Positions 24,447 through 51,418 of a stretch of DNA of 64,000 nucleotides are shown here, piece after piece (the first letter of the stretch is position 1; every line of letters starts with the position of its first letter). Source of the DNA: Diplonema papillatum (taxonomy: Eukaryota; Euglenozoa; Diplonemea; Diplonemida; Diplonemidae); contig JAPJBO010000630.1 in NCBI GenBank assembly GCA_030068145.1, positions 1 to 64,000 on the forward strand. The letters run 5' to 3'. Below the pieces are notes generated by a model. That model searched no databases and had not been told where the DNA came from. It saw nothing but the letters and a program-made list of their open reading frames with translations. Made by a program: the position numbers and the translations under genes.

Positions 24447-26549
24447 TCACGTCAGCGCGAAACCTTGAGGCGGCGGCGTTATCGAACGACGCACACGGTT
24501 GACGGCATCCACGCTGCCCTTGTGCGGGAAGGCGTAAGCCGCAAGAGGTTGTGAGCAGGCGTCGGGCACACCGGCGAGCCTGGGCGACTGCTGATTGGCT
24601 GCCAGATGCGGGTAATCGTGGGCGGTGTGCTGAGGGGTGCTGTGTATGGCGTGCAGGCTAGTCTTCCCTCGGCTACGCGGCTTCGGAGGAGTCTGAGATG
24701 CGTGGGAGGTTCGAACGTGAAGTATAGGGTCGTATGGAGGTGACGCGGGAGAGGTGACGGGGCTAGCTAAACTGTGCCCGCTGTTGCCACTGCGAATCGA
24801 CACCAAGTCCACGGGATGCCGGCTCCCGCTGCTTTGCGTGTTGCTCGCCCCGACGCCGTGCCCCCTCGCCGCTTGGCTGTGCGGAGGCTGCTGCTGGTGC
24901 GCGTGCAGCGGGTCCTGCTGCTGCACCAAGAGACCGACCGGGATGCTCCTCTGAGGGTCCGTTTTCCCCAGGAAGCTCGTCGAGCGCTCCTTGCTCAGCG
25001 CCCGGGCGCAGTAGAGGAAACCGTTCTCCGGAACCTCGCTGAGCCGGAAGTTCTCGCTCCCTTCCCTGCTCAACCCGCTCGGGCTTCCCGGGGCGTCAGC
25101 GGAGTGCTGCTCCCTCCGTTCGGACGTCACGGAGCCGCTTCGCGAGGACCGTCTCCGGTTCGCGGCCTTCAGAGGGTTCCTCGTCAACCGCTTCCCGTGG
25201 GCCGCCTGCTCCCGCTGCACGTACGTGTGCTCGTGCATGCTCGCCCTGCTCAGGAACGGCGCGGCGAAGCCGTCGTCCACGGTGTACGCGGGGGAGTTGA
25301 CTTCGTGGCCGTGGCTCCGGGGGGAGCCTGCTTCTCTCTTCGAAGCGTGCCGACCGGGGCTGTCGAGGTCGCGGAGGGATTCGGCGGTCTGCATCGAGGC
25401 GAAGGGGAGGGCTATTTTTTCGATGTCCGACGGGTAGCTGCTGTAGTCGACGAACGGCGACGTTTTGCCCTTCCGGAACAGGGGCCGCATGCCCTGGGCC
25501 TCGAGCATCTTCTCCGAGATCTTGCCCTTCGCGTACGCGTGCTGCATCAACCAGTACCGCTTGGCCTGAGACGTCAGCCAGACCGCGTTGAGGAACCAGC
25601 CGACGATGCTCAGCCCGGGGATGATGAAAAAAAACGCCATCACCTTCCCCGTGAGCGACCGCGGGTGGTAATCCCCGAAGCCGATCGTGGTCAGCGTCAC
25701 GTAGCAGTACCAGAACCCTTCCCGGTAGTCCCACCCCTCCTGCCCCATGAACGCGGCCGCCCACGACAGCAGCCAGATGAACATGATCAAGCTGCCGACG
25801 AGGATCCCCCTCCAAGAGTAGTGGTGCGGAAGCTCCGGCTGCAGCTTGTAGTAAACGGTCACCGCTTCGACCATTTCCCCGCGGGTTAAAACCCCGTCGG
25901 GATCTGTGTCGGCTTCGTTCATCACGTACTGGACGACCAGCGGGTCCACTTTCTCGCCGCTCAGCGCGCACAAGAAGCACCCGAGCTCCTCCCTGTCGAT
26001 CGTGCCGCTCCCGTCGGCATCGAAGCGGTCGAAGACGTTGTTCGCCTCCATCACCGCCGCGTTCGACAGCAAGCCGTCGTCCGAAAGCCGGTCGTTCCCT
26101 TCCTCGCGGCCGCAGAACGTGGTGTACAGGGCTTTCGTGATGCAGATGCCGAGGGTCGACAGCTTTTTGACGACGTGGGCGACCAACCCGATGCCGAGGA
26201 TCGAGTATATCAGGGTGAACACGCGGCCGCTGTTCGTAACGGGGGCTATGTTGCCGTATCCGATCGTGGTCACCACGGTCAGGCTGAAAAACGTCGCGCC
26301 GGAGAACGTCCACTCCCTGTCGTCGAGGCTCCGGAAGTGGCACAGGGTGGAGTCCTGGAGGATCCGGCGCTGCGCCTGCGTCAGGTTCGCGAGCTGCAGG
26401 ATCACCTCGCCGTCTTGGATATCCTGCCGCTCCTGCAATGACTCCAGCCCCGACAGCACGCCGCCCCCCAGGGCTAAGTACATCGTCAGGATCACCAGGT
26501 ACTGCACCACGAGCAGCATCATCATCCGCAAGGTGCTATCGGTATCCAT
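24447..26549 (-). CDS. Two-pore K+ channel with EF-hands between the pores
   Basis: 700 residues from the ATG at 26549. The N-terminal segment (residues 9-30) is transmembrane helix 1. Pore 1 has the K+ selectivity motif TTIGYGN (94-100), followed by helix 2. A cytoplasmic linker carries two EF-hand loops: DADGSGTIDREE (177-188, canonical) and DTDPDGVLTRGE (214-225). Helix 3 is around 247-267, and pore 2 has TTIGFGD (287-293), followed by helix 4. The last 350 residues are disordered, rich in Ser, Pro, His and Arg, with many potential phosphosites. The channel should pass K+ across a membrane and respond to Ca2+. In plant TPK channels the EF-hands are C-terminal, so this arrangement is unusual. 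A paralogue lies at 32274-33848. Partial tandem copies of this gene's 5' end follow on the right. Confidence 0.92.
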   Translation of the reverse strand: MDTDSTLRMMMLLVVQYLVILTMYLALGGGVLSGLESLQERQDIQDGEVILQLANLTQAQRRILQDSTLCHFRSLDDREWTFSGATFFSLTVVTTIGYGNIAPVTNSGRVFTLIYSILGIGLVAHVVKKLSTLGICITKALYTTFCGREEGNDRLSDDGLLSNAAVMEANNVFDRFDADGSGTIDREELGCFLCALSGEKVDPLVVQYVMNEADTDPDGVLTRGEMVEAVTVYYKLQPELPHHYSWRGILVGSLIMFIWLLSWAAAFMGQEGWDYREGFWYCYVTLTTIGFGDYHPRSLTGKVMAFFFIIPGLSIVGWFLNAVWLTSQAKRYWLMQHAYAKGKISEKMLEAQGMRPLFRKGKTSPFVDYSSYPSDIEKIALPFASMQTAESLRDLDSPGRHASKREAGSPRSHGHEVNSPAYTVDDGFAAPFLSRASMHEHTYVQREQAAHGKRLTRNPLKAANRRRSSRSGSVTSERREQHSADAPGSPSGLSREGSENFRLSEVPENGFLYCARALSKERSTSFLGKTDPQRSIPVGLLVQQQDPLHAHQQQPPHSQAARGHGVGASNTQSSGSRHPVDLVSIRSGNSGHSLASPVTSPASPPYDPILHVRTSHASQTPPKPRSRGKTSLHAIHSTPQHTAHDYPHLAANQQSPRLAGVPDACSQPLAAYAFPHKGSVDAVNRVRRSITPPPQGFALT

Positions 26550-26878
26550 TTTGCTGGGTAATCCCCTCCCCCACCCCTCTTCCCCGCCCCCCGGGAGGGG
26601 GGTTGGGGGACGTTCCTCTCAACCCCTAATTTATACTCAGTGTGATAGGTTAGTCCACAAAAAGAGTAGACACGCGCTTTTCCGTCTTGGCTTTGTGTCC
26701 CTACTTGTTTTTGCCAAGAGCTGCGGCTCCACTATTCTCACCTTCAATGAATCATACTGTTTTCTGGTTTTTTGTCGGGGTATCCGACCAACCACCTGTC
26801 TGCCCTCATGATACGTTCAGGGGCATGCTGAAGGAACCGCCCACCTAGCCAGTTAGAGTGAAGAAAAAAAAAGACGCC

Positions 26879-27378
26879 GCGCCTGCGCGAGCTGCAGGAT
26901 CACCTCGCCGTCTTGGATATCCTGCCGCTCCTGCGATGACTCCAGCCCCGACAGCACCCCGCCCCCCAGGGCTAAGTACATCGTCAGGATCACCAGGTAC
27001 TGCACCACGAGCAGCATCATCATCCGCAAGGTGCTATCGGTATCCATTTTGCTGGGTAATCCCCTCCCCCATCCCTCTTCCCCGCCCCCCGGGAGGGGGG
27101 GTTGGGGGGCGTTCCTCTCAACCCCTAATTTATACTCAGTGTGATAGGTTAGTCCACAAAAAGAGTAGACACGCGCTTTTCCGTCTTGGCTTTGTGTCCC
27201 TACTTGTTTTTGCCAAGAGCTGCGGCTCCACTATTCTCACCTTCAATGAATCATACTGTTTTCTGGTTTTTTGTCGGGGTATCCGATCAACCACCTGTCT
27301 GCCCTCATGATACGTTCAGGAGCATGCTGAAGGAACCGCCCACCTAGCCAGTTAGAGTGAAGAAAAAAAAAGACGCCG
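26879..27378 (-). pseudogene. Tandem copy of the K+-channel 5' end, copy 1
   Basis: A 500-bp unit, over 97% identical to 26379-26878. It contains the first 53 or so codons with ATG at 27047, the 5' leader and upstream sequence. After codon 53 it runs into the AAGAAAAAAAAAGACG junction instead of the channel's pore. It could act as an alternative promoter and first exon, or be inert. Confidence 0.88.
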
Positions 27379-27625
27379 CGCCTGCGCGAGCTGAAGGATC
27401 ACCTCGCCGTCTTGGATGTCCTGCCGCTCCTGCGATGACTACAGCCCCGACAGCACCCCGCCCCCGAGGGCCACGTACACCGTCAGGATCACCAGGTGCT
27501 GCACCACCAGCAGCACCATCATCCGCAAAGTGCTATCGGCATCCATTTTGCTGGGTAATCCCCTCCCCCACAACAGCACCATCCATCCACAAGGTTGGGG
27601 GACGTTCCTCTCAACCCCTCGATAG
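27379..27625 (-). pseudogene. Tandem copy of the K+-channel 5' end, copy 2 (diverged)
   Basis: Keeps the start region with substitutions (MDADSTLRMMVLLVVQHLVI) and a stop after about 35 codons. The upstream part is shortened and joined to CCACAAGGTTGGGGGACG. It is more diverged than the copy next to the gene. Confidence 0.85.
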
Positions 27626-27734
27626 GATATGTTCCACAAACGAGCAGGGTTTGTGTGTGTATGTGTGCCGGTTGTATGGAAAATATGCTAACACTGCACT
27701 GCAGGGAACAGTATCCTAGAACTTCTCGTTGGGG

Positions 27735-27875
27735 TTCGAGTGGTCACCACGGTCAGGCTGAAAAACGTGGCGCCGGACGGAGAACATCCACTCCCTGTCG
27801 TCGAGGCTCCGGAAGTGACACAAGCAGCACCATCATCCGCAAAGTGCTGTCGATGTCCATTTTGCTGGGTATTCC
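27735..27875 (-). pseudogene. Tandem copy of the K+-channel 5' end, copy 3 (remnant)
   Basis: Two pieces of the gene are fused: codons around 70-95 (SPSGATFFSLTVVTT, cut at the pore) and the start-codon region. The middle is deleted. It is the most distant and most damaged copy. Confidence 0.75.
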
Positions 27876-30800
27876 CCCACCTCGTCAGTAAGAGTGCTCC
27901 GGTGCGTTCCATATTGCGGCATATCGCACGGACGTCGGCAAACGGCACAGGGACAAACAGGAGGATGCTTAGATCAGCAGAAGAAGCGAACTGAGGAAGA
28001 AAAGAGCATGACGAGGGGTTGCTTGACTTGAGTCCCCCAAAGCAGCCGCCGGCGCAGTTGCTCGAAAGAAGGCTAGGCGCGACGGGGTTTGCTTTACTTT
28101 TTTCGGGTTCGGAGTTGAGGTTCTTTCGTTCGTTCTTTTTTTTTTTTTTTTTTGAACAATCTTCCAGGAACGCCGTTGTTCGCGTAATCCGAGTGATTCG
28201 ACGAGAAAATACGCCGTGCGGCTGCGATAGATCCTACGCGCCACTGAATACCACCACCTGGTTGTTTTCCGTGGCACGCGTCACGACCCGAGGCTCCAGA
28301 GTTCCTTTTCTTGTGGCCGGGGCCATACAGAACCGTATGCAAACAGACCTCTTTCGGCGCTGTACTGTCCGTTCATGAGATGAAAAACCTGGCCGTGCAT
28401 TGCCGTGTACGTTCAGCCACCGCGCAACACAGGCCGAGAACGAATCGGAGCACACGCACAAGCTCAAGGCTTGCATGAACAAAAATGCGTGGGTTTTGAT
28501 TTATCCTAGGAAAACGGCGAAACAGAGAGGGAGTGGGATGGTGCGTCAGACCCTCTTCGAGAGAAAACTGAACGTGTACCGCGTCTGGCCAGCCTCCCCA
28601 TTACAGGTCGACTCTGTTCCTACCCAAAGTAGACCGCTCACCGGTGAGAGGGGGAGAAAAACCCCTCGAGAAAGAGCCTGACGCGAGAGAGGAAGTCTGT
28701 CAGTCGAAGAACCAACCTTCGAGCGTCCGGAGCAATTCTTCGGAGAATGGGATGACGAGCGGGTGGGAGAGCAAGGTGCGCCAGACACACACCGCATACG
28801 ATGCCGCACTTCGCGATGGGACTGCACAAAGGTGGAACAAAGCTGAGGCTCCGACGCGCAGTTATGTAGAATCTCCGGTGGTCAAAAAGGAGATCCCCTA
28901 TTGCCTTCCCTTACGAGGGTACGTCGGATGTGGGTGTTATTGTACCTGAGGCACTTTGGGATGTGGATGCCACAGCCGTGCACGTTCGATGGCGCGGGTG
29001 CCCACGGTACAAGTTTCGGGGTCCTCTCCGTTTCTCCAACTACCGACATCAATGCAGAATGACTGCACGAGGACACCGGAGCTAGTTCCGTATACTAAAA
29101 GAACTGGTTCGTTCCTCTCAGGGAAAGCTAAAACCGTAAGAGGAGCTCCGCCGGTATCAGCGAAACGACACCGTCCCCGATCATCTGCATCTTCCCCTCG
29201 ACCTGATCGCGAACGGTGAACAGATGACGGTTCTAAGTGGCCCGCTTCTGGGAAGCAGGCGGGCGTCTGTTGATTGCGCTAGCAACACCTAGAATACTCC
29301 AGCCCCCGCGAGACAGGGTTGTTGAGTGCCCCGCAACTGGTTCAGCCGAAAAAGGCTCGGATTGGGCAACGAAACAAAGCGGTTGGGGACGCGAACACAA
29401 GCCTGTCCGTGTCCACAACGAAAACGGATGCAGCTTCTTGCTGGTCCTCACGTGAGCCGCAAAAGCACAATGAAGGAACCAAAACGAAGCTGCGGAAGCG
29501 GTGAGCGGGTACAGGCGGGAAAAGAAAGTCCCCGCCCGCCCCAGATTGGCACTCTTTACTGTGTTGGCCGAGCAGCAATTCTCGTGCTGTAGTAGCGTCT
29601 GCAGAGAGGACAGCGATGCAGCGATGTGAGTCTGGTTCGTCGCATGTTTAGGCAGGACTGTTAGCCTTTTCATGCATGTTTGATGCTAACACACTCAAGT
29701 CTTCTTGGGAGAAGATGAGAGGGGGATTAGTACTGCAATTCACGGAGCGAAGTAACGCCATCATGCTACCAATGGAGGCGCGCCGGAGCAAGCAACGGAT
29801 CCCCAAAAGAGCACGGGCGGCCTACCCCCCCAAGAGCAGAGGGACGAGACAGACGAATTGGCGGGACTCAGGCACATTCATCCCCATGAGAGTTCGAGCG
29901 ACCTTTACCAGAAAAAGAAAGCGCCAGAGCTGGGAAACGTTTCTCTCATAAGAGTTTCAGTCCCCGCAGCGCGCGCTCTTGCTTATAACAACAAGGGGAG
30001 AATCCAAGCCGGTCCATCCCCTCCTGATAAATCATGATAGTTTGGATAGCTTGGGTTAGTTTCGGTTTGGATGCAAAGAATCTGTTGCGATAATCTGCAT
30101 CGCCGGTATCGCGGTATTCTGTCATGTATCATGCTTTCGCCTCTTCCGCTCTACTGTGATAGACCGAAGAGTACAGCTTCAGGTAATTCATTGCAGCTTC
30201 AATGGATAGAGATGGACCTGACTGTGGTGGACCGTGATTCGCTGTGGTGAACAGCAGCAGGCAATCAATGCACATTCCAAGAGAAAAAATACAGGGATAG
30301 ACCGGCTTAGAATCTCAGTTCGGGGAGAGGCAGGGGATTCAAGACTTGGGCAGAACGCTGCCGCTCCTGCATGGGCTCTTCCGCAGAAAGGGGTCAGTTG
30401 CAAGGCGCCACGCCCCACGAGTTCCGCATTTTTACTTGCAGCATCAGTCCCTCTCAAGTAAGAAGTACTCGGAGGCCCCCCGGCGCTTATTTCGACGGAG
30501 GCTAGAGAGGGGGAGACAACAGCACACCACCACGTTTCGGTCCTTTTTTTAAAGATGGCGCTCACGCCCTGGCACGAAACCCAGATGCTTACCTCCGGTT
30601 TGTGCGGGGTACGCACATTGCCTCCTTTGTGATTCGGCTTGCGGCGTTCTTGGGCATTCGCTACGAAGCAGGTGCTCATTCAAAAAGAAAGAAATGCCCC
30701 GCGGGTAATAGCAGTCCATACGAACATCGGAACTGTGGTATGCATAACAAGTGACCAGGCAACAACTGTAATGAACCTGCAGTAGACCAGGTGTTTTCAA

Positions 30801-31189: not shown

Positions 31190-31620
31190 GGCCGAACTCC
31201 GTGAAGAACCGCAGGGCGGCGATCGCAACGTCGTCGAGCGCCGCGGGGTACTTGAAAAAAACCCCCGGGGTTTTTTCGGGCGGCGGGGTTTTGGGGCCGT
31301 GGGGTAGGGCAGTGGTTTGCACGTCCTTCACCGAAGTTTCCCGTGAAGGATGGCAAGTATCTGGTGTTTGATCCTCATAGCGTTTCTCGCGCCAACGCCC
31401 CGGAATGCGGTGTGTCCAAGAAAAGGAAAGCAGCCGTCGTCGGCGCCGGTGCCCCAAAGCAGCGAGCCGTCGTAGGCGGCGGAGCCCTCGGCGAGGGGAA
31501 GGAAGGCGTCGTCGTCGCGGCCCGCGCACAGCGGCCGGAGGCCGCGCAGCGCGCAGCTGCTGGTCGGTCAGCTTGCCGGCGGCGTCGAGCCTTCGCAAGA
31601 AGTAGTTGAAGTACGGCTAA
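31190..31620 (-). pseudogene. Partial copy of the second K+-channel 3' part, outer
   Basis: Matches the 32590-32850 coding region with insertions and deletions, then joins sequence equal to the gene's 3' flank. It shares the AAGTAGTTGAAGTA.GGCTAA junction with the next copy. Confidence 0.8.
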
Positions 31621-32040
31621 AGGTCACGTTTCTTCGTATCTTCCAACCCCCCGTTTTACCCAGGGTTAACACGGCGTCTTAAGAGCTTCCCCTTGTCGGG
31701 CGCCACAGAAGTGGCTAATTGTTCGAATCTTTCTTGAGTGGACAAGAAACCGCGTCTTGGTGTGCGTCCAAGTGTTCAACAACAACAACAACAACAACTG
31801 CACAACACAGCGTATGAATCCCCCGCCCCTACCCGACGAGCCTCACGGCTTCGAGGGGGGGTCCGCCTGCGTGGCGGAAGGGGGCGTTCGGAGCTTGTTG
31901 TTGTCGGGCTTGCCGGCCTTTTTGGACGAGGACGACGGTGGAGGAGCCCTCGGCGAGGAGCGGCCGGAGGCCGCGCAGCGCGCAGCTGCTGGTCGGTCAG
32001 CTTGCCGGCGGCGTCGAGCCTTCGCAAGAAGTAGTTGAAG
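31621..32040 (-). pseudogene. Partial copy of the second K+-channel 3' end, inner
   Basis: Carries the 3' flank with its CAA-repeat (31783-31797), the last codons (PPSATQADPPLKP equivalent) and a fused piece of the region near 32760-32850. The period to the true gene is about 427 bp. Confidence 0.82.
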
Positions 32041-32273
32041 TATGGCTAAAGGTCACGTTTCTTCGCATCTTCCAATCCCCGTTTTACCCAGGGTTAACAC
32101 GGCGTCTTAAGAGCTTCCCCTCGTCGGGCGCCACAGAAGTGGTTAATTGTTCGAATCTTTCTTGAGTGGACAAGAAACCGCGTCTTGGTGTGCGTCCACG
32201 TGTTCAACAACTACAACAACAACAACAACTGCACAACACAGCGTATGAATCCCCCGCCCCTACCCGACGAGCC

Positions 32274-33848
32274 TCACGGCTTCAAGGGGGGGTCCGCCTG
32301 CGTGGCAGAAGGGGGCGTTCGGAGCTTGCTGTTGTCGGGCTTGGAAGGCGGGCCGCGCTCGTCGTCGCGGTAGTACCGCTCGTGCAGGAGGGAGCTCGGC
32401 GGGGACCCGGTGAACGCCGCCGCGTGGTCGATGAGGCCCAGCTCGCACAGGTCCTCCTCCTCGTCCTCCGCCGAAGCTCCGGCGGCGGCCGGCGCGGGCG
32501 GCGGCGCGCCCTTCTTCGCCCGCCCGCCGGCCTTTTTGGAAGTGGACGACGCCGCCTTCTCGACCTTCTTCTCCGCCTGCCCGCCGAGCTCGGTGAAGAA
32601 CCGCAGGGCGGCGATCGCAACGTCGTCGAGCGCCGCGGGGTACTTGAAGAAACCCCCCGGGTTTTTTCGGGCGGCGGGGTTTGGGGGAGGTGGGGCAGGG
32701 CAGCCGTCGTCCCAAAGCAGCGAGCCGTCGTCGGCGGCGGAGGAGCCCTCGGCGAGGAGGCGGAAGGCGTCGTCGTCGCGGCCTGCGCACAGCGGCCGGA
32801 GGCCGCGCAGCGCGAGCTGCTGGTCGGTCAACTTGCCGGCGGCGTGGCGGCGCTGAAGCAGCCAGTAGTGCTTGGCTTGCGACGTCACGCGGATCGCGTT
32901 CAAAAACCACCCCACGACGCACAGTCCGGGGACGACGAAAAAAAACGCGAGCACCCGGCCCTCGTACGTCGTCGGGTGGTAGTCACCGAACCCGATGGTC
33001 GAAAGCGTCACGAAGCAGAACCAGAAGCTCTCCCGGTACCTCCAGCCCTCGCAGACCGAAAACAGCACGGCCCACGTCGACAGCCACACAAAAATCCCGC
33101 AGGCGTACGCGGCGATCGTCGCGCCGGACGTCTGCTGCGGGAGCTCGGGCAGCAACTTGTAGTAGATCCCCGCGACGCGGGCTGCGTTCGCGCGGGAGAA
33201 GACGGGGTTCCGCGCCGAACCGGTGTTCATGATGATGCAGTCCGCGACGAGCGGGTCCACATCGCGGCCTTGCAACGCGTCCAAGAACTTCTTCACGCAG
33301 TCCCGAGACAGCAGCGGCGGCTGGTCCGCGAAGAACTGGTCGTAAACGGAGTCGATGTGTTTGACGACGATCTCGGTCAACCGGCCGTCCTCGTCGACCT
33401 GGCCGACTTCGAGCAGGGGCGGGGGAGAGTGGTCGAAGGACTTCAACACCTGGCCGCAGGTGTCGGAGATCTCCTTGATCACGCGGGCGAGGATGGCGAT
33501 GCCGACGAGGGAATACGCCATCGTGAACAGCCGCCCTGAGTCGGTGGCGGGAGCGATGTTGCCGTACCCGATCGTCGTCACCGCGGTCAGGCTGAAAAAC
33601 GTGGCCCCGGCGACGGTCCATTCGGCGTCGTCGGTCGACCTGAACCGGCACAGGCCACCCTCTTCGAGGATCACGCGCTGCTCCGCCGACAGCTGCGCCC
33701 GGTTCAGCGCGACCTGCCCGCGCTCGATCCCCCTCCGCTCCCCGCGGGACTCGATCGACGCGAGCGTGGCGCCGCCGATGACCAAATACAGGAACACGAG
33801 GCCCATGCACCGAGCCACGTGGGCTGCTTCTTTCCGCAGCATTCCCAT
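32274..33848 (-). CDS. Two-pore K+ channel paralogue with decayed EF-hands
   Basis: 524 residues from the ATG at 33848. The frame extends upstream only through non-ATG codons. It has the same plan as the 24447-26549 channel: helix 1 (13-33), pore 1 TTIGYGN (91-97), linker, helix 3, pore 2 STIGFGD (283-289), helix 4 and a disordered Ala/Lys/Asp-rich tail. Pore 2 and the flanking helices are highly similar between the two. The linker aligns with the EF-hand pair, but the loops have lost their acidic ligands (QFFADQPPLLSRDC, NTGSARNPVFSRA), so Ca2+ binding is unlikely. The two genes are same-strand neighbours 5.7 kb apart, probably from a tandem duplication. A Pro-rich piece (APPPPNPAARKNPGG) coincides with a palindromic CCCCGGG/T-run patch. 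Confidence 0.9.
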   Translation of the reverse strand: MGMLRKEAAHVARCMGLVFLYLVIGGATLASIESRGERRGIERGQVALNRAQLSAEQRVILEEGGLCRFRSTDDAEWTVAGATFFSLTAVTTIGYGNIAPATDSGRLFTMAYSLVGIAILARVIKEISDTCGQVLKSFDHSPPPLLEVGQVDEDGRLTEIVVKHIDSVYDQFFADQPPLLSRDCVKKFLDALQGRDVDPLVADCIIMNTGSARNPVFSRANAARVAGIYYKLLPELPQQTSGATIAAYACGIFVWLSTWAVLFSVCEGWRYRESFWFCFVTLSTIGFGDYHPTTYEGRVLAFFFVVPGLCVVGWFLNAIRVTSQAKHYWLLQRRHAAGKLTDQQLALRGLRPLCAGRDDDAFRLLAEGSSAADDGSLLWDDGCPAPPPPNPAARKNPGGFFKYPAALDDVAIAALRFFTELGGQAEKKVEKAASSTSKKAGGRAKKGAPPPAPAAAGASAEDEEEDLCELGLIDHAAAFTGSPPSSLLHERYYRDDERGPPSKPDNSKLRTPPSATQADPPLKP

Positions 33849-36983: not shown

Positions 36984-37129
36984 CTTGTCATCACTTCGAA
37001 CCGAGTGTTTCCGGCGTTGTTTTAGGTAGGGTAGTTTACGGCGTTGTATTGTGGTTTAGTTTTTCTTGGTTGTGTTCCTTTCTTCCTGTTCGAGAGAAAT
37101 CAGTTGCGTTAGATGCAAGTATCAAGTGT

Positions 37130-38247: not shown

Positions 38248-38249
38248 AT

Positions 38250-41097: not shown

Positions 41098-41132
41098 ACA
41101 TGCGCCGGCCGCAAGTGAGGCCGGCGGAAAAG

Positions 41133-44123
41133 CTACAGCCGGATGGTGTTGTGCGGCGTCATCTGGCTGTCGATGGGCCAGGGGAACTCGTTCGACGAGA
41201 TGCGCGCGAGTGTCGTGCCGTGCGTCCGGTCCGCTCGCGACGTCTTCGGCTGCGAGGTGAGCGGGAGGGTGTCCTGCGACGCGGCCGGGCTCCACCCGAA
41301 GGAGGCCAGGTTCCTCCCCGAGGAAGGCTCCGGCCCCGACGACGAGCTGTCGCCGATTTCCCGCTGCTCCGCCACCTGCCGGTACCCCGGCCTAGCCCCG
41401 CCGTCCCGCGGAGCTCGGTACCCATCCAGCCGCCCTTCAACGCTGTGTCCGCTCGAAGCCGCAGACCCGCTGCCAGTCGTGCCCGAGGCGCGCTGGTCGT
41501 GCGGGGCTGTGTCTCTGTACCCATCTTGGCGCAGCTGCGCGTCTCTCCCGCTCGCGCTGTTTCGGTTCGACGCCCCGGAGGTAGCGTCTGCGTTGGCGGA
41601 AACCCGCAGGTCGGGCCGCGGAGCTCGCAGGGCTTCGTTTGGCTGCGCGGGTCCCCCGCTCGACGGGTTTTGCGACGACCGCTGGCCGCCGGTACTGTCC
41701 GGCACGTGCGGGTGGCCCCGCGCAGCCAAGCCCGCCGGGCGGTGCGCCGCCCTTGCGTCGTTGCCGGGCATCCCCGCGTTCCCGCCCCCACAACTGCGCG
41801 TCGACGAGTCGTTGACGGCCCTGCCGCCGCCGTCGTCGCCGCCCGTTCGCACCGTCGAGCCATCGCCACTCGGCTGGTTACTCCTCCGCGGCGCTCGCGA
41901 CTCAAGGTGTCCCGGTCGGTCCGCATGCCGCGAAGGGTCGTGGGTTTGGTTGCGGTTGCTGCTGTGCTGGCGGTGGCCTTGCGAGTCGTCCCCCCGCAGC
42001 TTCGCTCCGGGTCTTCTCCGGGCCTCCGGAGACTGGGGGGGCACGCGCTCGTTGCTCAGGTCCCACAGCTTCTGGAGCTTCTCGGCGTTCTCGAGGTGGA
42101 GCTTGTACTTTTTCAGCAGCTCCTGCGTGTTCGAGTCGAGCGTCGGGTCCCACGCGGGCACCCCCCCCGGGCTGGGCTCGTCCTCCCCGACCAGAAGCCC
42201 CGGGGGGTAGTGATGGTGGTGCACCTCGCCGCCGGCCCCCCACCGTACTGGAGACGTGTGCAGCGGCGAGCCGCCGCGGCCCCTGCGGGGGCTGTCGGCC
42301 GGCGACGCCTCGCGTTCACGGACGTACCGGTCGACCTGCGAGTGCAGGCTGACGTCCGACTTCGACCGCACGCTGCAGGCCGCGCTGCGCGTCTCGACGG
42401 GGCGGCGGGCCCCCGGCTCGCAGACGACGGTGACCGCGGAGGCAAAGAGCTCCGGGGCGCCGGCGGAGCTCCTGCGCCGGTCCGCCCCGCCGCTCTGCGG
42501 CGGGCGGTGGCTGGCGCCGGAGGCCAGCGGGAAGTCAGCAGGCGTGTTGCTGGGCGTAGCCGTCCGCGGCGGGTTGAGCTTCGAGTCGAGCCCGGGCGGG
42601 GGCTGCGCGGCGTTGCCGGAGTGGGCGTACAACTCGCGGGCCCCGGAGAGGAAGTTGTCCGGCCGCGCCGCCGCGGCGGCCGCAGCCCTGGGGGGGTCGA
42701 GCTGCGGGTCGTCTACGGGAGGGGCGTGGGACTCGAGAAAGTTGTCCGGCCGCGCCGCCCGCAGCACGGGCGTTGCAGTCCTAGAGGGGTCGAGTTTCGA
42801 GTCGATCCCGGGAGGCTGCGCCGTGTTGCCGGAGTGCGCGTAGGACTCGAGAAAGTTGTCCGTCCGCGCCGCCCGCAGCACGGGCGTTGCAGTCCTAGAG
42901 GGGTCGAGTTTCGAGTCGATCCCGGGAGGCTGCGCCGTGTTGCCGGAGTGCGCGTAGGACTCGAGAAAGTTGTCCGGCCGCGCCGCTCGCAGTACGGGCG
43001 TCGGCTGCATCGCGGCGGTGCCCGCCGAACTGCTCGAGAGAGCAGGATCCCGCCCGGAATTGGCCTCTGGAGGAGCAGGAGGAAGAGGAAGAGGAGGGGG
43101 AACTGGGCTCACCCGGGCCGGCTTCGCCTGCTGGTCGGCTGCTTCGCCGCAGCCAAGCTCGCGAAGTTCGCGCGCTGCGGCCAGGGCCTGGTCGCGGGCG
43201 GCCTGCAGCCGGCCGATGAGCCCTTCCTCCCCCCGCCCGCCGTCCGCAAACCCGTCCCTCCGGTCCACCGCCGGCCTCGTCACGTTGACGGCCAAGTCCC
43301 CCCAGTTCAACCCGGCGCGCTTGCCGTCCGCCGGGGACCCCGCGAAGCGGTCCGGGTTGAATGCCTGCGGTGGGTCGCGCGTCCGTCCGAGGCTCCCGGA
43401 CTTCGACCGCGAGTACGAGCAGCGCTCGGGGAACGGCGCGAGCCGGGCGGTGTTCGTGATCTGCCGCAGGGCGGGCGGCGGCGGCGCCGGCGGCTGCTGG
43501 CAGCGCGCCCGGAAGTAGAGTGCGTCGACGAGCTGCTGGTGCGTCTCGGCGAGCGCTGAGAACTCGGCGAAGTTGAGGTCCGCCCGGCCGGCCGGCACCC
43601 CCGCCGCGTGCAGCAGCGTGTCGACCGCCACGAACGGCGGCGCGGCCAGCCTCGTCAGCGAGGCGTGCACGTCCTGCCTGGACACCCGGCCCGTGATCCG
43701 TGTATCGAGATACGCGAATACAGCGAGCACCTTCGCTCCGAAGGTCGGCGCGGGACCTGTGGCCGCAACCCTCGCCGGCCAGGCGAGCGGCCTCCAGTAC
43801 AGCACAGTATGCACCGCCTCCGGGACGATCCCCGAAGCATCGCTGTGCCAGATGTTCTCCGGTTGGAAGCACCACATCTGCTGCCCCGGCGTGACGCCAT
43901 CGTGCACCGACGCCACCACCCACTGGCTCCCGCGCAGCGCCTGCAGTGACTCAACTTGGAACACCACGTCCGGGTACCCCGCCGGCCGGAGGGACTGCGA
44001 CAGCACGTCGAAGTACGCCTGCGCGCTCTCGACCACTTCCCTCACCGACGGTCGGGCGGCGAACGGGAGCTGCACGTTGTGCTTCTTCCCGTACAGGTCG
44101 GACCCCACGTTAACGGTGAACAT
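41133..44123 (-). CDS. BILBO1-like N-terminal domain plus EF-hand protein
   Basis: 996 residues from the ATG at 44123. Residues 1-103 follow the N-terminal domain of the trypanosome flagellar-pocket-collar protein BILBO1: a short beta start (MFTVNVGSDLYGKK), PSVREVVESAQAYF, then CFQPENIWHSDASGIVPEA, the counterpart of the FQP..WH....IPPA ending. Residues 128-195 resemble an EF-hand pair with imperfect loops (YLDTRITGRVSRQDV; GVPAGRADLNFAEFSAL). This order matches BILBO1. The rest is long, disordered and Pro/Ser/Arg-rich. It has 38-residue repeats around 390-530 (RAARPDNFLESYAHSG) and one short coil (ELLKKYKLHLENAEKLQKLW). A cytoskeletal, flagellum-base role is inferred. Such domains may occur outside Euglenozoa, so this is not proof of lineage. 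Confidence 0.8.
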   Translation of the reverse strand: MFTVNVGSDLYGKKHNVQLPFAARPSVREVVESAQAYFDVLSQSLRPAGYPDVVFQVESLQALRGSQWVVASVHDGVTPGQQMWCFQPENIWHSDASGIVPEAVHTVLYWRPLAWPARVAATGPAPTFGAKVLAVFAYLDTRITGRVSRQDVHASLTRLAAPPFVAVDTLLHAAGVPAGRADLNFAEFSALAETHQQLVDALYFRARCQQPPAPPPPALRQITNTARLAPFPERCSYSRSKSGSLGRTRDPPQAFNPDRFAGSPADGKRAGLNWGDLAVNVTRPAVDRRDGFADGGRGEEGLIGRLQAARDQALAAARELRELGCGEAADQQAKPARVSPVPPPLPLPPAPPEANSGRDPALSSSSAGTAAMQPTPVLRAARPDNFLESYAHSGNTAQPPGIDSKLDPSRTATPVLRAARTDNFLESYAHSGNTAQPPGIDSKLDPSRTATPVLRAARPDNFLESHAPPVDDPQLDPPRAAAAAAARPDNFLSGARELYAHSGNAAQPPPGLDSKLNPPRTATPSNTPADFPLASGASHRPPQSGGADRRRSSAGAPELFASAVTVVCEPGARRPVETRSAACSVRSKSDVSLHSQVDRYVREREASPADSPRRGRGGSPLHTSPVRWGAGGEVHHHHYPPGLLVGEDEPSPGGVPAWDPTLDSNTQELLKKYKLHLENAEKLQKLWDLSNERVPPQSPEARRRPGAKLRGDDSQGHRQHSSNRNQTHDPSRHADRPGHLESRAPRRSNQPSGDGSTVRTGGDDGGGRAVNDSSTRSCGGGNAGMPGNDARAAHRPAGLAARGHPHVPDSTGGQRSSQNPSSGGPAQPNEALRAPRPDLRVSANADATSGASNRNSASGRDAQLRQDGYRDTAPHDQRASGTTGSGSAASSGHSVEGRLDGYRAPRDGGARPGYRQVAEQREIGDSSSSGPEPSSGRNLASFGWSPAASQDTLPLTSQPKTSRADRTHGTTLARISSNEFPWPIDSQMTPHNTIRL

Positions 44124-45125
44124 GCACGGCTACCTCCTGCTTCCCTTTGGGCGAGCCCAACTCGCGTCCCACTCCTACCCGCGGGGCTGGGGGGGAGAAG
44201 GCTGGCGGGCTTCGGTACTACGCTGCGGCGGCGTGTTCAGTCCAACATGTTCCGCTCCTTTTCTCTTTCGAGGAGCAGCAGGGGGAGGGACGGGTAGGGT
44301 TCGGGGCGTGCCGCCCGACCACTCTTTTTCCTTTTCACCTGGGAGGGCGTTTTTTCGGCGTGGTATATGGTAACAACTGGTCTCGGCTTCGTATTTTCCG
44401 GCGATGCCTCGCGCAGTCCGTTGCCTGTGACGGCGTTCTTTTGGTTGGTGTTTTAAAATTACTTACATTCGCTGCTGATCTGCTGATTGGCTCTGCGTGT
44501 GTCTTTTCTTTTCTAGCGGCGGCGGGACATTCCGCTACTGAGCTGGGTTTGCGATAGTCATAGATTCTGGGCATTTCTACCCCACGTCAATTGCCCAAGC
44601 ACTCGCTCTATAGCCATGCGGGTCGGCGGATTCGACTTCGTTGACTAAAACGTGTCCTCAGCCCTTTCACGGCAGCGCGTTGGCTTTCTGGCAAAGCCGT
44701 CGGAAGATCTTGTTTGTGCGCACTAGCGAACCTTTGGTAAGCCTCACGCAGTACGCTGCCAACCTTGTACTAATATTTAGTACAAACTATGCAATCGGCA
44801 ACACGAGAAGAAAGAAGCGGGGCGCGGAATGGTTGGTAGGTACGACAGACCCTCTGCCCGAACTGCGGGGCTGGGCCAGGTATTCGTGCGTGTAAATGAA
44901 AAAAAGGGTCACAGGTAGCCCGACAGGGCTGGCAACACCCGGGTATGTATGGGTGCATACTTCCGGTCACTTGGCTGGTCAGCCGCGTGCCAGGTCAAAT
45001 TAGTCAGGTTGCTGGAAGGATCAGGCTCGGACTGGTTAGTTGGCTGGGCGTTGTTTGACTTGACTGTGGCCAAGACCTTGCTGAGGGTGCGGTACTCTTC
45101 AAAAAGTCCAAGCCGTTAGTGGGAG
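44124..45125. other. No gene; family E copy at about 44700-44815
   Basis: The family E motif TTTGGTAAGCCTCACGCAGT, then ACGCTGCCAACC and TACTAATATTTAGTA, matches 53420-53480 in the LEA2-like gene intron. Confidence 0.55.
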
Positions 45126-45337: not shown

Positions 45338-45404
45338 AATCAATGTGCGCACGGCAAAGACCGGCGCACGGTGGGATTAGAGGCAGCAGTTAAAAGTTCG
45401 GTAA

Positions 45405-45735
45405 CAGCAAGTTCGGCGGCGAAGGTGAAGCAAAATTCGGGCGATGCTCAGCTCGAATGATGCTAAGTTCGGGCGAAGCTACGTTCTGGTGAAGCAAAGC
45501 TCGGCGTTGCTAAGTTCGGCGTTGGTGAAGCAAAGCTTGGCGTTGCTAAGTTCGGCGTTGGTGAAGCAAAGCTCGGCGTTGCTAAGTTCGGCGTTGGTGA
45601 AGCAAAGCTCGGCGTTGCTAAGTTCGGCGTTGGTGAAGCAAAGCTCGGCGTTGCTAAGTTCGGCGTTGGTGAAGCAAAGTTCAGGCGATGGCGATGCTAA
45701 CTTCTGGCGACGATAAGTTCGGGCGGGGCGGGCAT
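45405..45735. repeat. 36-bp minisatellite
   Basis: Five regular units of GCTAAGTTCGGCGTTGGTGA plus AGCAAAGCTCGGCGTT (45490-45690), with degenerate units on either side. Confidence 0.95.
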
Positions 45736-45737
45736 AG

Positions 45738-46030
45738 CTGGGCGAGTAGTCGCACTACTGCCATCCACCAGTGCGGGTTGTACGCGCAGCGCTGGTGCCG
45801 GTACAGGCGGCCTCGGCGAAGGCCAGGCGGCCTCGGCGAAGGCCAGGCGGCCGTCAACTGCGCCGGCAGCAACCGGAAGACCCGCTCGCAGACCGTCGCC
45901 GCCGCCGGCGCCGTCGGCCGGAATTTGGGTTTCGCCCTCAGGCCCCCGGGGAACAAATGCGCCAGAGAAGGCGTCCGGTGCCTCTCCCTTCAGTTGAACT
46001 GAGCCGGCCCGCAACGACGCAGAGGCTCGT
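45738..46030 (-). pseudogene. Copy 2 of the cyclase-type gene 3' end
   Basis: Matches the last exon (HWWMA, CAYNPHW region, LLPAQLT, FPGG). It has a short triplicated GGCCTCGGCGAAGGCCAGGC tract that the gene lacks. Confidence 0.85.
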
Positions 46031-46122
46031 CTGCAGGCAGTACGCGCCTGCTTGCATCATAGAGCAGACCTCAGTCTGCGGGAACCTCGTTTCGGTCGAA
46101 TTCAAGCCATCGTTTCGGTCGC

Positions 46123-46570
46123 ATGTTTTCCTTCCCTTCCTTCCGCTTGCTCTCTATGGTTCACTACCGCCTCGAGAAGAACTGTCACTCGCAGCAGGAA
46201 CGCTGTCAGCAATGTCTTCCTCCACGCCGGGGCCCAAGGAATCAAGGGTCAAGTCGTTGGCGGGCGGCAGGCAGCTGCGAGAGTAGCCGCAGTAGGCCAT
46301 CCACCAGTGCGGGTTGTACGCGCAGTGCTGGTGCTGGTACAGGTCGGCGGCCTCGGCGAAGAAGGCCAGGCGGCCCGTCAGCTGCGCCGGCAGCAACCGG
46401 AAGACCCGCTCGCAGACCGTCGCCGCCGCCTGACGGGACTTGGGCTTCGCCTTCAGGCCCCCGGGGAACAAATGCGCCAGAGAAGGCGTCCGGTGCCTCT
46501 CCCTCCAGTTGAACTGCGCCGGCTCCGCAACGACGCAGAGGCTCGTCTGCAGGCAGTACGCGCCTGCTTA
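46123..46570 (-). pseudogene. Copy 1 of the cyclase-type gene 3' end
   Basis: About 95% identical by eye to 46614-47060 of the gene. It includes the stop-codon side and the codons for FPGGLKAKPKSRQ, with a small deletion in the VAAATVCE region. Confidence 0.9.
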
Positions 46571-46646
46571 CATCATAGAGCAGACCTCAGTCTGCGGAAA
46601 CCTCGTTTCGGTCGCATGTTTTCCTTCCCTTCCTTCCGCTTGCTCT

Positions 46647-49036
46647 CTATGGTTCACTACCGCCTCGAGAAGAACTGTCACTCGCAGCAGCAACGCTGTC
46701 AGCAGTGTCTTCCTCCACGCCGGGGCCCAAGGAATCAAGGGTCAAGTCGTTGGCGGGCGGCAGGCAGCTGGGAGAGTAGCCGCAGTAGGCCATCCACCAG
46801 TGCGGGTTGTACGCGCAGCGCTGGTGCTGGTACAGGTCGGCGGCCTCGGCGAAGAAGGCCAGGCGGCCCGTCAGCTGCGCCGGCAGCAACCGGAAGACCC
46901 GCTCGCAGACCGTCGCCGCCGCCACCTGCCGGGACTTGGGCTTCGCCTTCAGGCCCCCGGGGAACAAATGCGCCAGAGAAGGCGTCCGGTGCCTCTCCCT
47001 CCAGTTGAACTGCGCCGGCTCCGCAATGACGCAGAGGCTCGTCTGCAAGCAGTACACCGCATGCTCCCGCTTCGCGAGCCAGTCCTGCACGATCTCGTGG
47101 GCAACCGCCGACAGTACAATGTCGCCCCCACACGCCGCGCCGCAGAGGAGGGATGCCCTCATGAGCCCCGCGCCATAGACGCCGTGCCTGTCTCGGAGGA
47201 CCCGACATGAATCGACCGCCATCCTGGCGCGCGGCCCGTAGAACAAAGCGGGGGGGCGTTGCGTGTCGGTGGAGGGATGCCGTCGATCCCCGTCGTCCGA
47301 GTCCCCGCCGTCCTGCTGGTCGACAGTGCCGGCTATGGGGACGAATCGGGCGGTGTCGTAAGGGGAGCGGCCGCCCGGCTTGAAGGAGTCCTTTGCCGCC
47401 TCGACGCACAGCGCGGCGTAGGCCGCGGCCCGGGCCTCGGGCGTGTCCTTCGGCGCGTCGCCGGCGGCCAGGCGCGGGCAGGCGTCGTCGGCGGCGGCGC
47501 CCCGCGGCCAGTTGACGTGCTGCAGGGCCACCTGCAGCTGCAGCGCGAAGGCAGCCGCGTGCGCCGCCGCCGCGAACTCGAGCACCGCCCGGCCCGGGCC
47601 CGCGCGGATCACCGACACCCCGCCGCCGTTCGTCGGTTGCAACGCCCCGTGGATCGAACGCTCGGTGTCTGCGTTTTTTTTAGAGAGCAAGTTCGCTTAG
47701 GGATCCGGGGTTTTACAGTCTCCGAGTGACCATAGTCGTAAAGGTTCCTTCAAGGTATAGTATGTTAGTGTGTGTATCGTATCTGCTGTAGTGGCAGCAC
47801 GTGTGCTTGTGTGTGTATCTTTGTTGCCTGTTGCCGACTATTCGACTTATTTTAGCGCGCGCACTTATTATTTTTAGAGTGAAGGTTAGCTTGCGGATCC
47901 TCGGTTTTAAGGTCTCCGGGTGACCGTCGTCGACAGTGTTCTTTTATGGTGGATTACTAGATATGCGTATGTTTAGTGTTAAGTTCCTCGTGCGGTGTCA
48001 TTGTAGTATATTGCTGCTTCTGCGACTTGTGCCGTGCGCACTCTCGTTGCTGTTGAGACTAGTCATTTTGTGTTTTCCGACGATCCCGTATATGGACGTG
48101 CACGCCGACACCCCGCCGCCGTTCGTCGGTTGCAACGCCTCGACGATCGAGCGCTCGGTGTCTGCGTTTTATGAAGCCGTCGTCGAAAAGGTTCTTTTAT
48201 GGTATATTTACTAGGTGTGCCCATGTTTGGTGCTCATGCGGTGTGGTTGGTAACAGTCTGGTGCAGCTTCTCTTGTGACCAGTCATTCTTTTGTTTTCTG
48301 ACGATCCCGTATGGTACTTAGTCGGTGTTTTTCGACCGTTGTACTTGTCCCTTTGCATGGCACAGTTCCCGCGGGTTGGTACCAATTTTCTTTCGGGGAA
48401 ATTGCAGGATCGGCACGGCGAACCCCCTTACCGTAGTAACCTCAAACTATCGAGGTACCCTTCTCCCCATAAATGCCTGAGGAGCTGTCTTCGACGGGGC
48501 ATGAGTAGGGGATGGACCGGTTTCGTGACGACTGCTGGTGGATCTAAGAGGGGGTGCGGCTAAAAAGAATAGGCGCGATGTTTGTTTGTACGTGCCGGGG
48601 GAGGATTAGCCTGTTAGTGAGTGATAGTGCGTGCATATGATCGGTAGGCTAATCTTCTCCCAAACACGCTGCCAGCGTTCTCTTTCGTGTTTACAATTAA
48701 TTGTTATTACGAAAAACATACCGGGGGCTGCTGTGGACTCTTCAGGGTAGGGGACCGCGTTGACGTCGGCAACGCAGCGGTGGAGCAGCTCGTGCCACAT
48801 GGCGGGCAGGTTCGCGTACTTCCGCGAAAGCTGGTCGAAATCGTCAAGGCAGCAGAACAGCACCGCGGAACAAGGGGGGTCGGCGGCGAGAGCAGGCACG
48901 GCGTCCAGCCGACCCAGCGCTGTCGCCACGCCCTCCGAATGCGTCATCTGCTGCCGAGCCAAAACTCTGCGCTTCGAAAGCACGTGCTTCTGCCACCGGA
49001 CGACTGCACGCAGGGCCGCACTGTCGGCGCGGTAGT
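46647..49036 (-). CDS. Class III cyclase-type domain protein (diverged), two exons seen
   Basis: Exon 48722-49036 follows an acceptor CCCCCGCAG. Exon 46647-47668 follows AAACGCAG. The intron 47669-48721 starts GTATGT, and the frame is kept across it (GCC CCC G/AC ACC). About 445 codons are in view; the 5' exons lie further right. The first exon has a signalling-helix-like lead, then VLFCCLDDFDQLSRKY and MWHELLHRC, which align with the start of adenylyl-cyclase domains of trypanosomatids. The second begins VSVIRAGPGRAVLEFAAAAH and FALQLQVALQHVNWP, matching the helix after the second metal site. Later come FYGPRARMAVDSC and GGDIVLSAVAHEIVQDW, as in YYG..N.AAR and GGQ. The usual second catalytic Asp (GDSF) reads GPGR, so activity is doubtful. 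Partial copies lie on the left, and a 60-bp piece of exon 2's start is inside the intron. Confidence 0.72.
47695..48320. repeat. Family C array in the cyclase-type intron, with a copied exon edge
   Basis: Two to three family C units (GTCTCCG(A/G)GTGACC, TTCTTTTATGGT, GACGATCCCGTAT). At 48105-48168 a copy of the first 50 bp of the next exon, preceded by AAACGCAG, is embedded (ACACCGAGCGCTCGATCG on the minus strand). It is a potential decoy or alternative acceptor. Confidence 0.75.
48563..48719 (-). repeat. Introner-like family B, copy 3, at a 5' splice site
   Basis: Nearly identical to 8006-8160. Its left end begins 0-2 bases inside the intron: CCCCCG/GTATGTTTTTCGTAA on the minus strand. Confidence 0.88.
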
Positions 49037-49785: not shown

Positions 49786-50550
49786 TCACACACCGATGAT
49801 GCGGACTTCCAGTGCCCGGCTGGACTCGAGCAGGACCGCCTGCCGATGGTTCGCGCTCTGAAGCTGATCGTCTCGCTCTCCGGCCGCGTAAGCCACGTCG
49901 CTGAAGGCCGCCCACATCTTTTTGAGCGTCGACAAGCAGCCGGCCGCCTCCTCTGCTATCTCATACTCGTCGGACTCAGGCACCAGCCGCCCGTGCTCCA
50001 TCATCTCTCGCGTCTTGTGGTAGATCACCTCGCACGCCCGCGTCATGCTGTGCAGATGGCGGTACAGCGCGTGCATGTCTTTGTCGGCGGGCACGACGTT
50101 GTCCACTTGGAAGGTAATTAAATCGTCGGGATCTCGCTCGTTTTGGGCGGGCTTGTCAGGTGCGGGAGATGGGGGGCTGGCGGTCGGGAGCCATTCGGGG
50201 TTGTCGGCTGGCGCGGCGCACGCGGCGGGGGTGCTGGGCGCGGCCGCAACCGCGTCGTCTTCTTGCTGCTGGAGCTTCTCCATGGCCGCGTGGATGCGGT
50301 TCATCTCGTCGATGCCGGCGACGAGGTCTTGCACCTTGCCCACAGCCTTGCTGATCGCGGTCCGGGACGCCGCCGATTGCTTGTGCGCGACTTCGAACTC
50401 GTCATCCGACTCATCGTCTTCCGGCACCCCCTGCGGGGCGATCTGGACTCTGACCGACAGCCTCCTCCCCTTCACAGCAGCAACAGGGCGAAGCCCTCCA
50501 CCGACCTTCCCCTTGTGCTGCTTCTTCCTTTCGAGCCCGCGAACGGTCAT
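49786..50550 (-). CDS. Hypothetical protein, coiled-coil, parent of two partial copies
   Basis: 254 residues from the ATG at 50550 (MTVRGLERKK). The frame upstream of it uses no ATG. A basic start is followed by an acidic patch (EDDESDDEFEV), a predicted helix (AISKAVGKVQDLVAG, MNRIHAAMEKLQQQE), an Ala/Pro linker, and a second helical part (DMHALYRHLHSMTRACEVIY). I recognise no domain. The 3' end has a decayed copy at 49610-49680. The 5' end is copied twice on the right. Only this copy continues past QQQEDD into the rest of the protein. Confidence 0.65.
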   Translation of the reverse strand: MTVRGLERKKQHKGKVGGGLRPVAAVKGRRLSVRVQIAPQGVPEDDESDDEFEVAHKQSAASRTAISKAVGKVQDLVAGIDEMNRIHAAMEKLQQQEDDAVAAAPSTPAACAAPADNPEWLPTASPPSPAPDKPAQNERDPDDLITFQVDNVVPADKDMHALYRHLHSMTRACEVIYHKTREMMEHGRLVPESDEYEIAEEAAGCLSTLKKMWAAFSDVAYAAGERDDQLQSANHRQAVLLESSRALEVRIIGV

Positions 50551-50600
50551 GTTTTCGTGCTCTGTCTCCTTTCGGCACTCCTGCGACAAAGTTTTGAAAG

Positions 50601-50683
50601 AAATACTCGAGGGACTGCCTTGTGCTCATTCCCCGGGACTAGGGGGAGAGAAAACAGAACAACAGGTCATTCTTGTTGCTTAC
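50601..50683 (-). repeat. Family 1 half-element joined to an exon edge, copy 1
   Basis: From AAATACTCGAGGGACTGCC to TTGTTGCTTAC. On the minus strand it gives GTAAGCAACAAG at its start (50683) and CTCTCCCCCTAG at 50639, directly after the exon copy ending GAAGACGAC. Confidence 0.85.
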
Positions 50684-50980
50684 GTCGTCTTCTTGCTGCT
50701 GGAGCTTCTCCATGGCCGCGTGGATGCGGTTCATCTCGTCGATGCCGGCGACGAGGTCTTGCAGCTTGCCCACAGCCTTGCTGATCGCGGTCCGGGACGC
50801 CGCCGATTGCTTGTGCGCGACTTCGAGCTCGTCGTCCGACTCATCGTCTTCCGGCTCCCCCTGCGGGGCGATCTGGACTCTGACCGACAGCCTCCTCCCC
50901 TTCACAGCAGCAACAGGGCGAAGCCCTCCACCGACCTTCCCCTTGCGCTGCTTCTTCCTTTCGAGCCCGCGAACGCTCAT
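50684..50980 (-). pseudogene. Partial copy 2 of the 50-kb gene (first 99 codons)
   Basis: From MSVRGLERKK to QQQEDD, about 97% identical to the parent. It ends at a GAC/GTAAGC junction. It could serve as an alternative first exon. Confidence 0.88.
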
Positions 50981-51030
50981 GTTTTCGTGCTCTGTCTCCT
51001 TTCGGCACTCCTGCGACAAAGTTTTGAAAG

Positions 51031-51121
51031 AAATCCTCGAGGGACTGCCTTGTGCTCATTCCCCGGGACTAGGGGGAGAGAAAACAGTACAACTACAAAG
51101 TGGGTCATTCTTGTTGCTTAC
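51031..51121 (-). repeat. Family 1 half-element joined to an exon edge, copy 2
   Basis: Same junction as at 50683 (GTAAGC at 51121, CTAG at 51069), with the ACCCACTTTGTAGTTGTAC core of family 1 better preserved. Confidence 0.85.
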
Positions 51122-51418
51122 GTCGTCTTCTTGCTGCTGGAGCTTCTCCATGGCCGCGTGGATGCGGTTCATCTCGTCGATGCCGGCGACGAGGTCTTGC
51201 ACCTTGCCCACGGCCTTGCTGATCGCGGTCCGGGACGCCGCCGATTGCTTGTGCGCGACTTCGAGCTCGTCGTCCGACTCATCGTCTTCCGGCTCCCCCT
51301 GCGGGGCGATCTGGACTCTGACCGACAGCCTCCTCCCCTTCACAGCAGCAACAGGGAGAAACCCTCCACCGACCTTCCCCTTGCGCTGCTTCTTTCTTTC
51401 GAGCCCGCGAACGCTCAT
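51122..51418 (-). pseudogene. Partial copy 3 of the 50-kb gene (first 99 codons)
   Basis: Another 99-codon copy starting MSVRGLERKK at 51418, with its 5' flank changed beyond CTTTCGGCGCTCC. Its period with copy 2 is 438 bp. The tandem unit contains the family 1 half. Confidence 0.88.

Follow-up and report, generated by a model that had tools for sequence, protein, structure and literature searches.

Truncated tandem copies of gene ends form layered ladders in Diplonema papillatum

Partial duplication of genes is a common and well-documented phenomenon (PMC3449122), and in flies tandem duplications bring regulatory and coding parts of genes into new combinations (PMC5460883; all articles are cited here for parts of their text). 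We describe ladders, which are series of truncated tandem copies of one end of a gene, in a 64,000-bp stretch of the Diplonema papillatum genome. This stretch, called the window, comprises bases 1-64000 of contig 630 (136,008 bp) in an assembly of 271 Mb and 2910 contigs. Self-BLAST and self-comparison of the window showed that 7 of its 11 listed genes or open reading frames (ORFs) have truncated copies of one end, all in direct orientation.

Structure and decay of the ladders in the window

Genes were listed with a codon-bias finder. Because the finder performed poorly on reversed sequence (30 segments, versus 36 in the real sequence), ORF length and Pfam matches were added. The window codes for IFT20 and two two-pore K+ channels. 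The PIN-like, BILBO1-like and cyclase-type proteins had no Pfam match and bear the labels given in the original prediction, which was made from the letters of the window; a search with the BILBO1-like protein matched no protein relative. Ladders were located at the 5' end of K+ channel 1 (K1), the PIN-like gene and the 50-kb gene, and at the 3' end of K+ channel 2 (K2), the BILBO1-like gene, the cyclase-type gene and the right-edge gene (Table 1). Self-BLAST detected no ladder at the CSD ORF (340-1353), IFT20 (8146-8535), the ORF at 54577-55290 or the IQ ORF. The seven ladders were thus confirmed among those predicted, whereas the predicted PLAC8 and IQ ladders were not: a scan of five ORFs between 51.5 and 56.4 kb gave no PLAC8 match, and only an 84-bp minisatellite adjoins the IQ ORF.

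All copies adjoined the parent gene in direct orientation and formed head-to-tail tandem arrays, with units mostly of 430-570 bp that straddle one coding end. The units begin within the coding sequence, cross the start or stop codon and reach the flanking non-coding DNA; the copies are truncated within the coding sequence and carry the non-coding flank. In K1, for instance, positions 26388-27126 matched 26886-27619 at an offset of 498 bp with 94.7% identity, and a third copy started at 27385; analyzed as a tandem repeat, the array had a period of 499 bp, 2.4 copies and 97% matches. Unit sizes were not strict multiples of three (e.g. 430 and 499). Minisatellites have units of tens of bases in many copies, and the ladders have offsets of 429-574 bp and two to four copies.

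The copies at one gene end were of several ages. One inner boundary was common to the copies in each of K1, the BILBO1-like gene, the PIN-like gene and the 50-kb gene, as expected if a first duplication is later amplified. Older copies of K1, K2 and the right-edge gene had other end points within the gene and internal deletions, indicating that more than one round occurred. Nearer copies were at least as similar to the gene as farther ones in 9 of the 10 multi-copy ladders, based on coding substitutions; the predicted rule that the nearest copies are most alike failed only at the right-edge gene. In the BILBO1-like ladder, identity was 99.4% at an offset of 438 bp and 90-92% for the outermost copy. 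The predicted one-endedness was not strict, as short or weak copies also occurred at the opposite end of three of the seven ladder genes (cyclase-type gene, 66 bp; right-edge gene, 37 bp; 50-kb gene, weak with 69% identity).

Frameshifting indels were present in 16 of 27 aligned copies. The 11 copies that lacked them included all three K1 copies and both copies of the 50-kb gene, which had no indel in the compared part; the 50-kb copies are young. Summed over the 27 copies, with the stop-free frame picked for some genes, substitutions at codon positions 1, 2 and 3 numbered 76:73:109. A mild third-position excess is expected from a constrained gene compared with an unconstrained copy.

Genome queries with six of the ladders (all but that of the right-edge gene) were made with a search that passes over very common words. 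The sole match was the own locus for the K1 array (query 26400-27400), the BILBO1-like ladder and the cyclase-type ladder, and an origin from mobile elements was rejected on this basis. The K2 ladder gave six short matches elsewhere. The PIN-like ladder matched elsewhere solely via an adjoining dispersed repeat, and the 50-kb ladder almost solely via a SINE (short interspersed element)-like fragment. Both unit junctions of the 50-kb ladder contain this fragment (50597-50663 and 51027-51116), which lacks the poly(A) end. No poly(A) tract was found at copy 3' ends in the junctions read, as would be expected of retrocopies.

By eye, the 50-kb copy junctions (50679-50683 and 51117-51121) show a donor-like GAC|GTAAG followed by the SINE-like fragment with a polypyrimidine-TAG stretch. 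Judged from these letters, the repeated block might be spliced in phase 0, with a newly made intron. The idea that copies start or end at splice sites was rejected: it was clear at the 50-kb gene only, at the junction with the SINE-like fragment, and the other junctions, also read by eye, had no consistent donor or acceptor.

Table 1. Positions of ladder genes and their truncated copies in the window, and gene-end arrays at other K+ channel-domain loci
Feature	Position	Strand	Smallest offset (bp)	Details
K1 gene (two-pore, EF hand)	24447..26549	-		PF07885 E 2.4e-31 and EF-hand matches; 700-aa predicted protein
K1 5' tandem array	26388..27619	-	498	~2.5 copies, unit 498-499 bp
Older K1 5' fragments	27740..27877	-		88-92%; extend deeper into gene, internal gap
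Older K2 3' fragments	31191..31585	-		31445-31585 and 31191-31312, 91-93%
K2 3' tandem pair	31530..32343	-	429	31530-31912 vs 31959-32343, offset 429 bp, 96.6%
K2 gene	32274..33848	-		PF07885 E 3.8e-31; 524-aa predicted protein
PIN-like gene	35004..36981	-		683-aa ORF, strong codon bias; no Pfam match
PIN-like 5' ladder	36708..38246	-	450	offsets 450 and 188-203 bp, 74-84%
BILBO1-like 3' ladder	39617..41391	-	438	unit 438-439 bp; three copies ~99% and an older one 90-92%
BILBO1-like gene	41133..44129	-		998-aa ORF, top codon score of window; no Pfam match
Cyclase-type 3' ladder	45722..47065	-	537	offsets 537 (89.5%) and 1030 bp; two extra copies
Cyclase-type gene	46647..47696	-		codon-bias finder; no Pfam match
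Copy of cyclase-type 5' end	48105..48170	-		66 bp, vs 47612-47677, offset 493
50-kb gene (orphan 254-aa protein)	49786..50550	-		protein search matched own contig's protein only
50-kb gene 5' ladder	50253..51457	-	430	three copies, offsets 430 and 868 bp, 96.8% (offset 430)
Right-edge 3' ladder	62536..64000	-	574	copies 63155-63443 and 62573-62902 of 63842-64244; dispersed elements in between
Right-edge gene	63842..64000, on to ~65235 of contig	-		codon score 254.8
L029	5' end			unit 500 bp, 82%
L031	3' end			unit 400 bp, 92%
L032	3' end			unit 599 bp, 96%
L025	3' end			complex array with 116-bp sub-repeats

From 340 to 65235 and on to ~92 kb of the contig, all listed genes and ORFs are minus-strand; the first on the plus strand occur at ~93 kb. 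Several other repeats were noted. Dispersed copies of a SINE-like element, ~228 bp long and ending in poly(A)/poly(T), occur at 63614-63841, 20076-20300, 19289-19552, 8619-8764 and 53605-53802, and many fragments of this element were met in the genome search with the 50-kb ladder (40 of 733 candidates scored). Eukaryotic large subunit (LSU) rRNA matches lie at 22394-22524 and 60958-61092. The segment 22394-22524 resembles 38366-38547 and 56378-56522 (listed spans 38265-38548 and 56281-56522), a family dispersed in the genome, one member of which sits beside the PIN-like ladder, at its outer side. A 62-bp satellite occupies 9298-11604 (~37 copies, 97%), and units of 49 bp make up a second array at 17289-18145. 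Near the window, reverse transcriptase ORFs of retroelements, one with RNase H, were found at contig 630 positions 100996-103776 (L007-L008) and 130056-134000 (L010).

Recurrence and placement of the ladders in the genome

The survey covered a further 188 kb, comprising 70 kb of contig 630 and 13 stretches on other contigs, and was extended by 3 kb to complete an array cut by the end of a stretch. Gene-end ladders certainly recur elsewhere in the genome. Five loci (L015, L021, L029, L031 and L032) showed the same anatomy and L025 a more complex version of it, and ladders were present on at least six contigs (C630, C450, C2100, C124, C31 and C1491). For a gene-centred sample, a genome search with Ion_trans_2 gave 79 matches, and 15 loci outside the window were fetched from the 22 best rows with their repeats unseen. 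Gene-end arrays were found at four of these K+ channel-domain loci (L029, L031, L032 and the complex L025), and at the remaining 11 no long-unit repeat straddled the ends of the channel ORF. In L025 (2987-3591), a 141-bp piece over the exon-ORF start of the K+ channel gene recurs 464 bp upstream with 95.7% identity, so that a similar copy may also occur at an exon border. Outside the window, strict ladders from the hand-made set were present at 5 of 41 listed genes or ORFs. The predicted statement that most genes carry ladders therefore holds for the window and is a local feature of ~24-65 kb, but does not extend to the other stretches.

Placement relative to coding ends was analyzed with several sets of arrays. 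An initial loose set of 23 arrays was hand-picked and omitted the non-genic SINE pair 19289/20078, the pairs 73959/75705 and 76532/77874, and two in-gene repeat regions. Because it omitted non-genic pairs, it was replaced by a mechanical set, limited to copies no shorter than 140 bp at offsets of 250-2000 bp and cleared of minisatellites, and the overall significance fell. The mechanical set contained 28 arrays, three of them inside coding sequence, and 14 of the other 25 straddled a coding end (null expectation 9.58, p = 0.043). When the smallest offset was 250-700 bp, a size cut chosen after the ladders had been seen, 13 of 19 non-internal arrays straddled a coding end (null 6.46, p = 0.0005) and one more lay inside coding sequence; the seven arrays of the discovery window supply much of this excess. 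Arrays with offsets below 200 bp straddled coding ends less often than expected (2 of 43 non-internal arrays; null 6.42, lower tail p = 0.025). Both straddling cases were in gene-centred loci (L025 and L032), and the count outside the window was 2 of 32 (p = 0.12).

A first look at hand-made sets, with the window included, had shown straddling in 9 of 10 arrays with units of at least 400 bp and in 0 of 28 short-unit arrays, with four arrays of other sizes adding one straddling case. The tenth long array is a 468-bp in-frame tandem DOMON repeat inside a 1310-aa DOMON-ferric reductase ORF (L013 9044-10000 and L024 1-453). In the hand-made strict set (contiguous arrays, offset 400-1200 bp), 12 of 13 arrays straddled a coding end and one lay inside coding sequence (p = 0.00015); outside the window all five non-internal arrays straddled one (pooled null 1.92, p = 0.0076). 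This set retained the L021 array despite an additional 105-bp offset and omitted a 1.9-kb array of L020 that lies at no listed gene.

Several points weigh against a focus of duplication at gene ends. Outside the window, the mechanical set showed no excess when all units of 250-2000 bp were counted (7 of 16 straddling; null 5.96, p = 0.38), and the result at 250-700 bp was borderline (6 of 11; null 3.13, p = 0.054). When the strict arrays were placed within their own loci, the value outside the window was p = 0.09, with 2 of 3 in random stretches (p = 0.32) and 3 of 3 in gene-centred loci (p = 0.22). The strict set was hand-curated; its right-edge array was lengthened to the gene copy, and its cyclase-type array was shorn of a minisatellite. 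The window was selected for showing the pattern, copies of coding DNA stay recognisable longer than intergenic ones, and the gene list rests in part on a codon-bias finder that overlooked the GC-poor DOMON gene, a source of bias for the GC3 comparison (below) as well. Enrichment at gene ends is thus likely, yet not proven outside the discovery window, and the predicted contrast with the rest of the genome stood for units of 250-700 bp overall, was borderline outside the window, and vanished there when units up to 2 kb were included.

GC content at third codon positions (GC3) was higher in ladder genes (median 0.862, n = 13) than in the others (0.782, n = 28; p = 0.0002). The difference was also found outside the window (6 vs 25 genes, p = 0.003). 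These comparisons are biased, as several ladder genes come from the codon-bias finder; in the K+ channel loci, the only set free of this bias, ladder and other loci (4 vs 11) gave p = 0.056. High GC3 would agree with recombination-associated, GC-biased conversion. The higher GC3 of ladder genes fits duplication focused at breaks, with the confounding noted.

Origin of the ladders

We lean towards the view that the ladders are decaying partial gene duplicates, generated when DNA is duplicated locally in tandem and then exchanged unequally, and that gene ends are possibly a focus of this process. A head-to-tail local duplication, mostly of 400-610 bp and with breakpoints on both sides of the coding end, would leave the gene whole and add a truncated copy of its end outside. 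Array size would then shift by unequal exchange or slippage. Later rounds would insert young copies beside the constrained gene, and outer copies would decay by substitution, frameshift and internal deletion. We infer a higher rate of duplication at gene ends than elsewhere, and growth of the arrays through unequal exchange or slippage. The prediction of a local, repeated duplication capturing one gene end agrees with the rounds of differing age and with the recurrence of ladders elsewhere. Its special one-ended process is not needed, because breakpoints that flank a gene end already yield a truncated, one-ended copy in plain tandem duplication.

By analogy with other organisms, double-strand breaks, meiotic or transcription-linked, are perhaps concentrated where promoters and terminators lie in open chromatin. 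In Arabidopsis, break hotspots are reported at promoters and just downstream of termination sites (PMC6237102), and in ATM-deficient mice tandem duplications are reported at double cuts of adjacent hotspots (PMC12918824). Small-duplication sites in Drosophila are above expectation in coding sequence and 3' untranslated regions (UTRs); they fall below expectation in 5' UTRs, and active elements have fewer duplications, which speaks against this analogy (PMC6380325). A more far-reaching version, in which both ends of GC3-rich genes are the target of frequent duplication, preferably ~400-600 bp long, and the layers mark past double-strand breaks gene by gene, is unlikely.

The principal alternative is random local tandem duplication combined with selection and detection bias, with duplications inside coding sequence being lost, those between genes or at their ends surviving, and those touching genes staying visible longer thanks to their one conserved copy. 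It has a substantial chance of being correct, if a smaller one than an even chance. Non-genic direct repeats do exist, since 9 of the 16 non-internal arrays outside the window, with offsets of 315-1884 bp, straddled no listed gene end; the test of all units outside the window was null, and small segmental duplications are frequent in Drosophila (PMC6380325). Random duplication nevertheless predicts about half of the 13 straddling arrays among the 19 with offsets of 250-700 bp (6.5 expected). Moreover, several straddling arrays are recent (BILBO1-like 99%, K2 97%, 50-kb gene 97%, L032 96%), and slow decay of coding copies does not account for those.

The original prediction also suggested that copies could supply promoters, exons or terminators, a suggestion that the data did not bear out. 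Functional copies, serving as alternative promoters, first or last exons or terminators under selection, or as tandem exons that add protein repeats, appear improbable. The 50-kb copies end at a good splice donor (GAC|GTAAG), and two of them have no indel in 298 nt; the second cyclase-type copy has a 137-aa frame open to a stop with one frameshifting difference near its start; and the DOMON repeat is in frame. The frameshifts in more than half of the aligned copies and the near-even spread of substitutions over codon positions, with a weak third-position excess, argue against function, and the 50-kb donor adjoins the SINE-like junction and may be there by chance. The in-frame DOMON array and the 50-kb block spliceable by eye in phase 0 would also suit ladders that are remnants of coding tandem repeats, expelled from the gene when its start or stop shifted. 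We consider this very improbable, as the K1, K2, BILBO1-like and cyclase-type units hold a start or stop codon together with flanking non-coding DNA and so were never purely coding repeats. An assembly artefact from duplicated haplotypes or read overlap errors could yield copies as similar as the 99% identical ones of the BILBO1-like gene, but outer copies differ by up to ~26% and carry private indels, and the ladders are spread over several contigs; such an artefact has the slightest chance of all.

Significance and comparison with known systems

If gene ends are true duplication hotspots, the ladders would let the history of breakage at promoters and terminators be read in a species that lacks recombination maps, and would give a steady local supply of truncated gene pieces. 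If the enrichment instead reflects survival and detection bias, they would still be a clear example of tandem duplication at gene borders. In either case, annotation pipelines may take such copies for exons or short genes. Ladders of this kind were described in none of the literature titles and abstract openings listed, a negative that carries little weight.

Like minisatellites and satellites, the ladders are head-to-tail arrays of changing copy number; unlike minisatellites, their units are long and few, and the arrays with offsets below 200 bp studied here lay mostly away from coding ends. Tandem duplications from paired meiotic breaks (PMC12918824) resemble the proposed process in that they would put duplications where breaks cluster; they are known from the germ cells of mice, mainly those that lack ATM, whereas the ladders are known from sequence. 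The closest likeness is to partial gene duplicates from small tandem duplications (PMC3449122, PMC6380325, PMC5460883), which are small, have breakpoints that disregard gene boundaries, and leave a derived copy that is truncated and often degenerate. In the ladders, unlike in those duplicates, several decaying rounds are stacked at one gene end with units mostly of 400-610 bp, and these stacked rounds and recurrent unit sizes set them apart from ordinary partial duplicates.

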